A stretch of 64,000 bases of DNA from Haloterrigena sp. KLK7 (GTDB lineage: Archaea > Halobacteriota > Halobacteria > Halobacteriales > Natrialbaceae), in the NCBI RefSeq assembly GCF_037914945.1, contig NZ_CP149787.1, positions 992,001 through 1,056,000 of the forward strand, written 5' to 3'. The position numbers and the translations under genes are program-made. The notes beneath the pieces are model-generated. The model did not search any database, had not been told where the DNA came from, and saw only the letters and a program-made list of their open reading frames with translations. Every line of letters starts with the position of its first letter. Position 1 is the stretch's first letter. Shown one piece after another: positions 39,835 to 61,639 of this stretch.

Positions 39835-42749
<2,915 letters not shown>

Positions 42750-51831: not shown

Positions 51832-51954
51832 TGTCCGCATTCAGGGCAGGCAGCGATTCAAGCTTTCGGAACGAGAAGTCGTCGGCGAACAGTTGGCCAA
51901 TTCGGACCGCAGGCGGATCTCGCGTCCGCGAATCGGCTACGGCGCCTCGCGTCG

Positions 51955-52017
51955 CTTTACGTACTTCTGGTCACAAGGTGGAGATACGACGGGAGAACGG
52001 TTCCTTCTCGAGTCACC
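51955..52017 (+). repeat. Promoter/hairpin element, copy A
   Basis: TTTACGT, then TTCTGGTCACAAGGTGGAGA, then TACGACGGGAGAACGG and CTCGAGTCAC. About 57 bp nearly match copy E. GGTGGAGA can also pair with TCTCCACC at 52021–52028. Confidence 0.8.
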
Positions 52018-52071
52018 TCGTCTCCACCAGCGGTAGCGCTCGAGTCACTGATCAGCGATCCTCGACGGTCG

Positions 52072-52120
52072 TTCTTTAAGTGGCTCTCGTCACAAGGTGA
52101 AGCTACGAAGAGCTTCTCGC
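52072..52120 (+). repeat. Promoter/hairpin element, copy B
   Basis: TTCTTTAAGTGGCTCTCG, then TCACAAGGTGAAGCTACGAA, ending in hairpin GAAGCT–ACGAAG–AGCTTC (52099–52116). It lies 36 bp before the nucleotidyltransferase ATG, so it may be that gene's promoter and leader. Confidence 0.8.
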
Positions 52121-52155
52121 GGACCGCTGTCTCGCTGGACACGAGAGCGACAGCC

Positions 52156-53109
52156 ATGTCTACCGTCCCCGACGCCGTTTTCGAGACCGTCGACGACCTG
52201 CTGGCGACGATCGAGCACGACCGCGACGTTCGCGTCGCGCTGGCGGTCGCCCGCGGGAGCCACGCCTGGGGCGCGGCGAGCCCCGAGAGCGACTACGACG
52301 TCGGCGTCGTCTTCGTCCCTGACGATCTGCGTCGCTACGCCCATCTCGAGGGACGACCGGAGACGATCCTCGAGGAGTCCGGCGACGTCGAACTACAGGG
52401 GTGGGACGTCCGCACGTTCGCGCGGCTACTGGCTGACTCAAACGACGGCGCGATCGATCTGCTCCGGAGTCCGGTCCGCTATCGCGTCGCGTACGATCCC
52501 GCGGCCCTCGCCGCCTACGTCGACCGGACGTACAATCCGATGGACCTCTATCACGCGTGGCGAGGTATCGCGACGAGCAACTACCGGAAGTACGTCTCGC
52601 ACCATCTGGTCCGCAGCGACGACGCGACGTTCCCGATCGTCGAGGTGCGCGAGGACGAGTACGTCGTCGAGACCCGAGACGAGGGAGGAGGAGACGACTC
52701 TGGCACCGGCGACGGAACGCGAACGATCCCGGCCGACGACGAGCGGTTCACCGAGACGCAGACGAAACCCACGGTGAAGCGAAACCTGACGATCGTCCGG
52801 GCGGCGATGTCGGCTCGCTACCTGAGGGCGACCGGGGAACGAGGCGACCACGAGCTCCCGGCGATCGAGTTCGACCGCTTCCTGGACGAGCAGGCGCCGT
52901 CGGTCTTCGACGCCGATCGAATCCATCGCGCCCGCGCGTTGCTCGAGCGAAAGCGGGCCGGTGAGGGGGCGGCAGTGATCGGCGACGCCGTCGGCCGCGA
53001 GTTCGCCCACCCGCCCCGCGAGATCGATCCCGCGATCCACGCGCGCAGCGGTCCCGCTCTCGGACGGCTGGACGGGTTCATCGACGAGTTGATCGACGCG
53101 GTCCGGTAG
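52156..53109 (+). CDS. RlaP-like nucleotidyltransferase domain protein (PF10127)
   Basis: 317 residues. The pol-beta-type signature is RGSHAWGAASPESDYDVGVV, with the two metal-binding Asp in SDYD. A later conserved block contains NYRKYVSHHLVRSD and, after an acidic low-complexity loop (GGGDDSGTGDG), TKPTVKRNLTIVRAAMSARY. This is the PF10127 / RlaP predicted nucleotidyltransferase family, linked in bacteria to RNA repair. No RNA ligase is adjacent. ATG 52156 is chosen because upstream sequence is repeat element B. The gene is surrounded by the six repeat elements. Confidence 0.82.
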   Translation: MSTVPDAVFETVDDLLATIEHDRDVRVALAVARGSHAWGAASPESDYDVGVVFVPDDLRRYAHLEGRPETILEESGDVELQGWDVRTFARLLADSNDGAIDLLRSPVRYRVAYDPAALAAYVDRTYNPMDLYHAWRGIATSNYRKYVSHHLVRSDDATFPIVEVREDEYVVETRDEGGGDDSGTGDGTRTIPADDERFTETQTKPTVKRNLTIVRAAMSARYLRATGERGDHELPAIEFDRFLDEQAPSVFDADRIHRARALLERKRAGEGAAVIGDAVGREFAHPPREIDPAIHARSGPALGRLDGFIDELIDAVR

Positions 53110-53137
53110 CGGTCGGACGGCGTCTCGGAGAGCGATC

Positions 53138-53196
53138 GTTCTTTAAGTGGCTCTGGTTACAAGGTGAAGATACGACGGGACGGCGTCGTTCTTCGA
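53138..53196 (+). repeat. Promoter/hairpin element, copy C
   Basis: GTTCTTTAAGTGGCTCTGGT then TACAAGGTGAAGATACGACG. Downstream, GAAGATACGAC pairs with GTCGTTCTTC (one bulge), a hairpin in the same place as in copy B but with a different stem. It begins 28 bp after the nucleotidyltransferase stop. Confidence 0.8.
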
Positions 53197-53402
53197 GGCT
53201 ATCGAAACCCGATCAGAGACCGATCTCTCGAGTGATCTCTCGTCCGTAGACGAGCGACTGAGCAACCGGGCGAACTCGAGTGCCGGTGAGCGCGGTCCAC
53301 AGAGACGGGCCGTCCGCTAACTGATCACCGCTGGACACCGCTGCCGTTACTCCGTCTCGTAGTCACAATAGCGGTTACTGGCGTGAGCGTCTGGCATCGC
53401 TG
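53197..53402. other. Intergenic between element C and the zinc-finger ORF
   Basis: About 200 bp with no open frame of interest and no clear hairpin. Confidence 0.4.
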
Positions 53403-53510
53403 ATGACGTGCGATAGTTGTGGTGAGGAGATCGAGGGAACGCGATTGTATACGGCGAACGGAGGAAGGACGAGCAACCTCGGTGTCTACCATCCGGATTG
53501 CCGCCCGTAG
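53403..53510 (+). CDS. 35-aa zinc-finger microprotein (CxxC…HxxC)
   Basis: ATG 53403 to TAG 53510: MTCDSCGEEIEGTRLYTANG, then GRTSNLGVYHPDCRP. Cys 3/6 with His 30 and Cys 33 form a treble-clef or LIM-like zinc site (CDSCG…YHPDC), which chance would rarely give in so short a frame. The gene lies inside the repeat-element cluster, between copies C and D. No obvious TATA box directly upstream. Function unknown. Confidence 0.65.
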   Translation: MTCDSCGEEIEGTRLYTANGGRTSNLGVYHPDCRP

Positions 53511-53558
53511 CCGCGTGTCCGCCACGAGCGACGTGGGGCGATCGGTCCGCGATCGCGC

Positions 53559-53612
53559 TTTCCGTATCTCTGGTTACGAGGTGGAGCGATGACGGAAACG
53601 AGGTCCTCGAGG
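53559..53612 (+). repeat. Promoter/hairpin element, copy D (degenerate)
   Basis: CTTTCCGTATCTCTGGTTAC then GAGGTGGAGCGATGACGG. The TATA part is lost, but CTCTGGTTACGAGGTGGAG keeps the conserved core. Confidence 0.6.
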
Positions 53613-53665
53613 AATAAGACGAGGGAGCGATGGGCCTCTGCAGTGATCGGCCGCCAGTGAACGAC

Positions 53666-53731
53666 GTTTCTTTAAGTAGCTCTGGTCACAAGGTAGAGAT
53701 ACGACGGGAGAACGGTTCCTTCTCGAGTCAC
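53666..53731 (+). repeat. Promoter/hairpin element, copy E
   Basis: GTTTCTTTAAGTAGCTCTGG then TCACAAGGTAGAGATACGAC, GGGAGAACGGTTCCTTCTCG and AGTCAC. The second half is identical to copy A. Confidence 0.8.
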
Positions 53732-53786
53732 AGATTCGCGGGTAGCGACATCGATCTTCGAACCGTGGCCCGAACCAACGACTGGC

Positions 53787-53839
53787 ACTTCTTTAAGTGC
53801 TTCTGATCACAAGGTGAAGCTACGAAGGGCTTTTCGCGG
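53787..53839 (+). repeat. Promoter/hairpin element, copy F
   Basis: ACTTCTTTAAGTGCTTCTGA then TCACAAGGTGAAGCTACGAA. AAGCT pairs with GGCTT through a G–T, mirroring the hairpin of copy B. It is the last copy, about 145 bp before the next gene. Confidence 0.8.
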
Positions 53840-53984
53840 CGCCGAAATCCGTCCCCAGCCACGAGAGCGGTTGCGCCGTCGGGCGGTCGTCCCGCGGATT
53901 CGTATCATCGAGCCGGTCAGTTCCCTCGAGCGACGGTTCGCCTAGGAGGTGCCTTTTTCCGTCTGCCGGTCCGAGGGAGCGGTA

Positions 53985-54764
53985 ATGAGAGACGACGGTG
54001 CTGAACCCGGTCCAGGCCTCGACGACGCCGCGGCCGTCGGCGACAGCCCGCAACTCGAGTACGAGGACGAACGCCGACTCGAAAACCGGCCCGGCTCCGG
54101 GTCGCTCTCGCGGGCGGACGTCCAGCGCGATTCGACGGTCCGCCAGTGGGGGGTCGTCACGCCGAGTGCGACCGTGATCGGCCGCGCGGAGTCGCCGGAG
54201 GGGGACCTCTCGGAGAGCGTCCGCCGACTGCACGACGAACAGCACGCGGCCACGCCGGGCTACAGCGAGCGCGCTCACCGGCTCGACCGGCTGCGGACGA
54301 CCCAGGCGCTGTGTAACGCCCTCGAGGTGACGCCGTGGCAGCGGGACCTCGCGCTGGGCGTCATGGACGAGATCGATCTCACCGAGTTCGGTAGCCAGCG
54401 CGCGATCGAGAAGGTCGCGCTGGTGGTCATCCGCCACGTCGTCGACGTCGACCGCCAGCAGTACTTCGGGCTCGACGACATCGACGCCCAGGCGCTGTCG
54501 GCCGACCGGATGGACGACCTGTTCGCCCAGTACCGGGCCCACGACATCACCGAGGAGGAGACGTTCAAGCGTCTCGCGGCCGACTACGGGCTGGACACGA
54601 CCAGCCTGAACCGGCTCCGACGGGTCCTCAAGGAGCAACTCGAGGACGAGCTCCCGGCGTACGGCCGGAACCCCTACCGAGACCCCAACCTGCCGGACGT
54701 CACCGAGGCGAACGCGGGGAGCGAGGAGGGCGTCGCCGCCGGCGACGGCGCGAACGAGGCCTGA
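53985..54764 (+). CDS. Probable haloarchaeal RNA polymerase subunit epsilon
   Basis: 259 residues from ATG 53985. After a variable acidic N-terminus, the conserved part begins RDSTVRQWGVVTPSATVIGR and continues with LHDEQHAATPGYSERAHRLD, then LRTTQALCNALEVTPWQRDL, then FGSQRAIEKVALVVIRHVVD. This layout matches proteins annotated as DNA-directed RNA polymerase subunit epsilon in haloarchaea, from memory. The helical middle resembles cyclin-like/TFB repeats. The assignment is not based on a known catalytic motif. Confidence 0.62.
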   Translation: MRDDGAEPGPGLDDAAAVGDSPQLEYEDERRLENRPGSGSLSRADVQRDSTVRQWGVVTPSATVIGRAESPEGDLSESVRRLHDEQHAATPGYSERAHRLDRLRTTQALCNALEVTPWQRDLALGVMDEIDLTEFGSQRAIEKVALVVIRHVVDVDRQQYFGLDDIDAQALSADRMDDLFAQYRAHDITEEETFKRLAADYGLDTTSLNRLRRVLKEQLEDELPAYGRNPYRDPNLPDVTEANAGSEEGVAAGDGANEA

Positions 54765-60679: not shown

Positions 60680-61639
60680 ATGGCTCGCCCATCCCGCCAG
60701 CGTGAACGCGAATCAGCATCGACCGAAACCACAGACCAACGTGAACGCGAGCGGGCGTGTGACGAGTGCGCCGACGGCACGCTCGTCACGAGCGAGGATC
60801 AGGGCGAACTCGTCTGCGATCAGTGCGGACTCGTCGTCGAAGGCTCGAACATCGACCACGGCCCGGAGTGGCGCGCGTTCAACCACTCGGAGCGACAGAG
60901 CAAGTCCCGCGTCGGCGCGCCGACCACCCAGACGATGCACGACAAGGGGCTGACGACCTCCATCGACTGGAAGAACCAGGACGCCTACGGCCGCTCGATC
61001 TCCGCGGACAAGCGCAGCCAGATGCGCCGCCTGCGCAAGTGGCAGGAACGCATCCGCACCAAGGACGCCGGCGAACGCAACCTGCAGTTCGCCCTCAGCG
61101 AGATCGATCGAATGGCCTCCTCGCTGGGCATCCCGCGATCGGTCCGCGAGGTCGCCTGCGTCATCTACCGGCGCGCCCTAGACGAGGACCTTATCCGCGG
61201 CCGCTCGATCGAGGGCGTCGCCACCAGCACCCTCTACGCCGCCTGCCGCATGGAGGGCATCCCCCGCTCGCTCGAGGAGGTCGCCGCCGTCTCCCGCGTC
61301 GAGCGCAAGGAGATCGGCCGCACCTATCGGTACGTGGCGCAGGAACTGGGACTCGAGATGGAGCCCGTCGACCCGAAACAGTACACGCCGCGGTTCTGCT
61401 CGGAGCTCGACCTCTCGGAGGAGGTCCAGGCCAAGGCCACCGAGATCATCGACACGACGACCGAGAAGGGACTGCTGTCGGGTAAGTCGCCCACGGGCTA
61501 CGCCGCCGCCGCGATCTACGCCGCCTCGCTGCTCTGTAACGAGAAGAAGACCCAGCGCGAGATCGCCGAGGTCGCCCAGGTGACCGAGGTGACCATCCGG
61601 AACCGGTATCAGGAGCAGATCGAAGCGATGGGGATCTAG
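60680..61639 (+). CDS. tfb: Transcription initiation factor TFB
   Basis: 319 residues from ATG 60680. The N-terminal zinc ribbon has [20 protein letters not shown] then DQCG; the B-finger contains [20 protein letters not shown]. Two cyclin repeats follow, with [20 protein letters not shown] and [20 protein letters not shown], and the C-terminal helix-turn-helix contacting BRE ends [20 protein letters not shown]. Haloarchaea carry several TFB paralogues; which one this is cannot be told here. Confidence 0.96.

Follow-up and report, generated by a model that had tools for sequence, protein, structure and literature searches.

A repeated promoter-like element that accompanies the gene for RNA polymerase subunit epsilon in haloarchaea

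The window analysed here is a 64,000-nt stretch of DNA from Haloterrigena sp. KLK7, and all coordinates below are positions in it. Between 51951 and 53828 the window carries six copies (A to F) of a 42-nt block, all on the plus strand. The gene order is folE2 (minus strand), A, B, a gene for an RlaP-family nucleotidyltransferase, C, a 35-aa ORF, D, E, F and rpoEps. The ORF at 53985-54764 is one that we take to be rpoEps, a putative name that draws on synteny. The features are as follows.

51951..51992, plus strand: copy A of the 42-nt block, with the variant TTTACGT; at the array's upstream margin and in divergent orientation to folE2
52070..52111, plus strand: copy B of the block, 86 nt 5′ of the RlaP ATG
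52156..53109, plus strand: RlaP-family nucleotidyltransferase (PF10127), found within the array in some genomes only
53137..53178, plus strand: copy C of the block, 27 nt past the RlaP stop codon
53403..53510, plus strand: 35-aa Cys-rich ORF, zinc-finger-like, conserved in congeners
53554..53595, plus strand: copy D of the block, degenerate (TTTCCGT, ACGAGG)
53666..53707, plus strand: copy E of the block; 67 nt from its start match copy A at 91%
53787..53828, plus strand: copy F of the block, epsilon-proximal, 198 nt 5′ of the rpoEps ATG
53940..53984, plus strand: distinct promoter-like region belonging to rpoEps, GAGGTGCCTTTTTCCG; conservation in congeners is strong
53985..54764, plus strand: presumed rpoEps, haloarchaeal DNA-directed RNA polymerase subunit epsilon

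All six window copies agree at 22 of the 42 columns, and the block consensus is CTTTAAGTnnyTCTGGnnACAAGGnnnAGmTAyGA. A search for the 24-nt core with up to 3 mismatches gave 5 matches in the window against 0 expected from shuffled controls. Scoring with a block model returned the six copies only, and none in the shuffled window. Neighbours in the array are spaced by 119 nt (A to B), 112 nt (D to E) and 121 nt (E to F). A previous sequence-only reading of this DNA had noticed six same-strand copies around the nucleotidyltransferase and the 35-aa ORF; they are real, and shuffled controls came nowhere close. Its statement that the copies lie only around the nucleotidyltransferase is true of the window and fails for the genome as a whole. 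R1, a sequence-only model built from the six window blocks and used for the genome searches, found 15 copies in this genome, that is, the six in the window and 9 elsewhere. Of the latter, three precede a GNAT gene (about 120 nt apart), one precedes a PAP2 gene, one follows another gene and four are on a second replicon. A relative of the 35-aa Cys-rich ORF adjoins two elements on the second replicon (L056 2876-2968).

The element was present in 22 of the 40 relatives searched; in a larger set of 391 haloarchaeal genomes 128 had it, with 1-15 copies per genome. The commonest site of the array is between the divergent folE2 and rpoEps genes, and a second site is between AEC and GNAT/thiE. Copies were found before rpoEps, DsbA, GNAT and RlaP genes, and the copy number of the array varies between congeners. 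Our alignment comprised 150 copies from 54 loci and the window. The labels Halobacterium-type and Halococcus-type, used below for some of the compared genomes, are presumptive.

The information in the block is concentrated from just 5′ of TTTAAGT to about 12 nt beyond the expected start, and the flanks are random. The TTTAAGT box, which is at least 92% conserved, is centred 27 nt before a conserved T35|A36 (column 9 to A36). A25 and A26 are conserved at 99% and fall at -11/-10, matching the WW at -10 of the haloarchaeal basal promoter, whose consensus consists of the BRE CGAAA, the TATA box TTWT and this WW (Brenneis 2007 as cited in PMC4983044). The block is like that promoter in its TATA-like box and its AA. 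However, it has no purine-rich BRE (CGAAA) 5′ of the TATA-like box, since block columns 3-5 are the pyrimidines T/C, T/C and C, and it has about 20 more fixed positions from the TATA box to +12. The block has haloarchaeal promoter geometry, with a predicted start site at T35|A36; the predicted start for copy B is near 52105. The promoter-like character that had been read into the copies is supported by this geometry and by conservation across families. The weak-BRE promoters of TFB-RF1 in Thermococcales (PMC5937170) are similar in combining a TATA box and a weak BRE with a conserved extra element, and in serving a small regulon to which the operon of the regulator itself belongs. The TFB-RF1 site is a 13-nt palindrome 5′ of the BRE, whereas the extra element of the block is 3′ of the TATA box and non-palindromic, and both the clade and the protein are different.

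A hairpin with compensatory change had also been proposed for the sequence directly after the block. In our test, pairing of a copy's own arms was no stronger than pairing of arms exchanged between copies, and the folding of the block and its downstream sequence showed no excess over dinucleotide shuffles (mean z about 0). Pairing in which one arm is invariant escapes the arm-swap test, but not the shuffle test. On these two tests an RNA hairpin with compensatory change was rejected as a feature of the family. The near-palindrome TCACAAGGTGA did not fare better: only copies B and F have it in exact form, and block columns 21-22 and 29-31, which are its outer positions, belong to the least conserved part of the block. 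A near-palindromic operator was rejected because the sequence is not conserved. The other exact occurrence of this 11-mer in the window, at 41470-41480 on the minus strand, is a chance match inside the 23S rRNA gene. Rfam at gathering thresholds matched only rRNA, 5S and tRNA over the window and nothing in the repeat region. A small coding ORF in the block seemed unlikely, because by eye the common AGCTATGA variant puts a TGA into the apparent GTG frame.

In many loci the motif AGY-N4-RCT, which is co-varying over only 3 bp, lies 24-41 nt 3′ of the block. Among 193 units it was AGC/GCT in 35, AGT/ACT in 17 and mixed in 7, so that the 52 matched cases make up about a quarter of the units, and in the control 48 matched in 2000 random 48-mers. 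By eye, none of the window copies has the strict form. At loci L120-L122 of genome G142, perfect hairpins such as TTCGACGC-AGTT-GCGTCGAA are found directly 3′ of the blocks, and one copy has TTCGACGT-GTTC-ACGTCGAA, a matched base-pair change. Two hairpins are followed by T-runs at these loci. Judged from these sequences, the hairpin looks real in the genus of G142 alone.

We sorted 183 units by what lies after them, using gene starts from a codon-usage gene caller made for this analysis: after 73 comes another unit, after 58 a gene start on the same strand no more than 260 nt away and after 15 the end of a convergent gene, while the other 37 have none of these. At L113 and L115, both Halococcus-type loci, convergent genes are about 100 nt apart and a single unit takes up the gap. 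In most loci and lineages rpoEps has its own promoter-like box directly before its start. Because units sit in convergent gaps and rpoEps mostly has a box of its own, the units look self-contained. Independent short transcripts may be made, since many copies have no protein gene after them. This much is left of the suggestion that the copies are short structured RNAs or controlled leaders, while its compensatory hairpin falls away.

The sequence-only reading had linked the element to PF10127 and, speculatively, to RNA repair. Among 145 genomes of the class, PF10127 was found in 39 and the element in 52; both occurred in 27, and 12 had PF10127 without the element. About half of the element genomes have no PF10127, and the link did not hold. 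RlaP is inside the array in 12 loci examined and is missing from other loci that keep the array. This distribution (27 of the 52 element genomes with PF10127) rules out RlaP as the partner of the element. It is hardly credible that the copies are structured RNAs or leaders with a link to RlaP and RNA repair. RlaP does lie within the array in many f1 genomes, and its distance from copy B (84-86 nt) is almost fixed in the genus; however, the swap and shuffle tests were negative, RlaP is absent from Halobacterium- and Halococcus-type element loci and from several f1 genera with the element, and RlaP without the element occurs in the 12 genomes mentioned.

The real partner of the element is rpoEps, not RlaP. 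Among the 391 genomes, rpoEps was found in 160 and together with the element in 127, and the element without rpoEps in 1, an 87%-complete assembly (G363). Fisher's test gave p 4e-70 for this co-occurrence, a statistic that ignores phylogeny. Within the set of 145 genomes, all 52 with the element (R1) were among the 57 with a strong rpoEps match. The spread is patchy: in family f5 the element and rpoEps both occur only in genus g66, and in genus g12 genome G016 has both, whereas G094 and G124 have neither. In most of the families examined a copy is located 100-250 nt 5′ of rpoEps; this was seen in genomes of f1, f6 and f17 and of the Halobacterium and Halococcus types. Physical linkage accounts for part of the co-occurrence.

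The model had no match in 33 of the 160 rpoEps genomes, about half of which have a weak or diverged copy. When rpoEps upstream regions missed by the model were inspected, 8 of 14 had a diverged block. Only four genomes, each of them rpoEps-positive, carried the diverged form TTTAAGTnnyTCTCGnnACAAGGGTTCGTAGTGA. No element was found near rpoEps in some rpoEps-positive genomes (f4 g59, G070 and some of f17). Block divergence tends to track epsilon divergence (Spearman 0.72, 23 hand-collated cases), and this correlation may come from shared descent; Halococcus-type genomes are an exception, keeping a near-consensus block with an epsilon only about 54% identical. Some rpoEps matches contain one in-frame stop codon (G012, G016, G066, G209, G258 and others). 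These may be true pseudogenes, or matches that run on past the end of a gene.

Since 1983 it has been known that epsilon belongs to RNA polymerase and enables the enzyme to transcribe native DNA. It is present in a subset of haloarchaea, RNA polymerase with epsilon transcribes native templates efficiently, and the role of the subunit has been called enigmatic (PMC8305020). The window protein, presumably the orthologue of Halobacterium rpoeps OE_1279R (PMC8305020), shares 69% identity with its counterpart in the genome matched to H. salinarum. In the papers searched we found none that links rpoeps to a promoter class.

We tentatively favour, at not quite an even chance, the idea that the repeats are a promoter class coupled to epsilon, either depending on the subunit or feeding back on it. 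The block would be a specialised haloarchaeal promoter that extends from just 5′ of the TATA-like box to about +12, and RNA polymerase carrying epsilon would use it or be needed for it. The TCTGG-N2-ACAAGG core and the downstream AGATA may compensate for the missing BRE. Copies at rpoEps would exert feedback on epsilon, and arrays would grow by tandem duplication of units of about 120 nt, raising output. Where an rpoEps, RlaP, GNAT or PAP2 gene follows, transcripts would enter it; elsewhere the units would give short non-coding RNAs of roughly 60-80 nt. Several points stand against this idea: 1-15 copies per genome are few for a subunit needed generally on native templates, rpoEps mostly has its own promoter-like box, the co-occurrence statistic ignores phylogeny and is partly explained by linkage, some rpoEps-positive genomes show no element near rpoEps, the Halococcus-type block stays near consensus beside a diverged epsilon, and the comparisons of epsilon with TFB described below are weak or negative.

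Archaeal repressors typically act between the TATA box and the start, where the conserved core of the block is also placed. The block may be the site of another regulator acting there on rpoEps and a small regulon, so that epsilon would be a target and not the reader. This is rather unlikely in our judgement, although the few copies per genome and the rpoEps, DsbA, GNAT and RlaP genes downstream of copies agree with it. The core has no conserved dyad, its conservation goes together with that of the TATA box and of the first transcribed bases, and loss and gain of such a regulator would have to match those of rpoEps almost exactly. A family of small RNA genes with products that work as RNA, perhaps on RNA polymerase containing epsilon as 6S RNA does, would explain why 52 of 110 terminal units have no close same-strand gene start after them, why many convergent gaps are just 89-114 nt and why the downstream AGY-N4-RCT co-varies. 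We consider such a family improbable: conservation is mostly 5′ of the expected start, neither a folding excess nor an Rfam match was found, and the co-varying motif is short and confined to about a quarter of the units.

The tandem arrays, their differing copy number in congeners, the copies on the second replicon and inserted genes that are varied and without a common theme could also be seen as marks of an intergenic repeat, neutral or selfish, with its origin at the rpoEps locus, from which it spread and with which it hitchhikes. Against this, the block is nearly constant over several families while its flanks are random, terminal repeats and a recombinase were not found, and the element is absent from rpoEps-negative genomes, even close relatives; such a repeat is very unlikely. 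An integron-like or transposon cassette array was rejected, as the inserts range from a histidine kinase to ABC transporters and other genes, and recombinases are no theme among them. A phage origin was also rejected, there being no match in phage records.

If the repeats are a promoter class coupled to epsilon, the subunit itself may read them. Pfam and NCBIfam have no model that matches the ORF at 53985-54764, TFIIB included in the case of Pfam, and hhalign of epsilon against the TFBs of the genome gave nothing (probability below 1%). Pfam and hhalign thus do not support epsilon as a TFB homologue detectable by sequence. In two AlphaFold models of epsilon the core was well predicted and the N-terminus was not. 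The top Foldseek matches of these models were mostly cyclins, Brf2 and TFIIB (probability up to 0.93, E > 0.3, TM about 0.3). The cyclin/TFB likeness had been guessed before the fold was predicted, and this is a weak test of that guess. The models weakly resemble cyclin-box/TFIIB folds. It is conceivable, though unlikely, that epsilon is a TFB-like cyclin-fold specificity factor with its own BRE-less promoter class (TTTAAGT-N3-TCTGG-N2-ACAAGG-N3-AGATA), autoregulation at rpoEps and array-borne short RNAs. If this were true, epsilon would be an archaeal functional analogue of a bacterial alternative sigma factor. The question raised is whether an archaeal polymerase subunit chooses promoters, and a conserved element that accompanies epsilon across families would be a direct, testable handle on epsilon-requiring promoters.

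Distant epsilon paralogues (about 22-30% identical) were seen in rpoEps-lacking genomes, and some rpoEps-positive genomes have second ones (L171-L178, L158). A TFB gene with PF00382 repeats lies at about 61076-61624 of the window, 6-7 kb 3′ of rpoEps.
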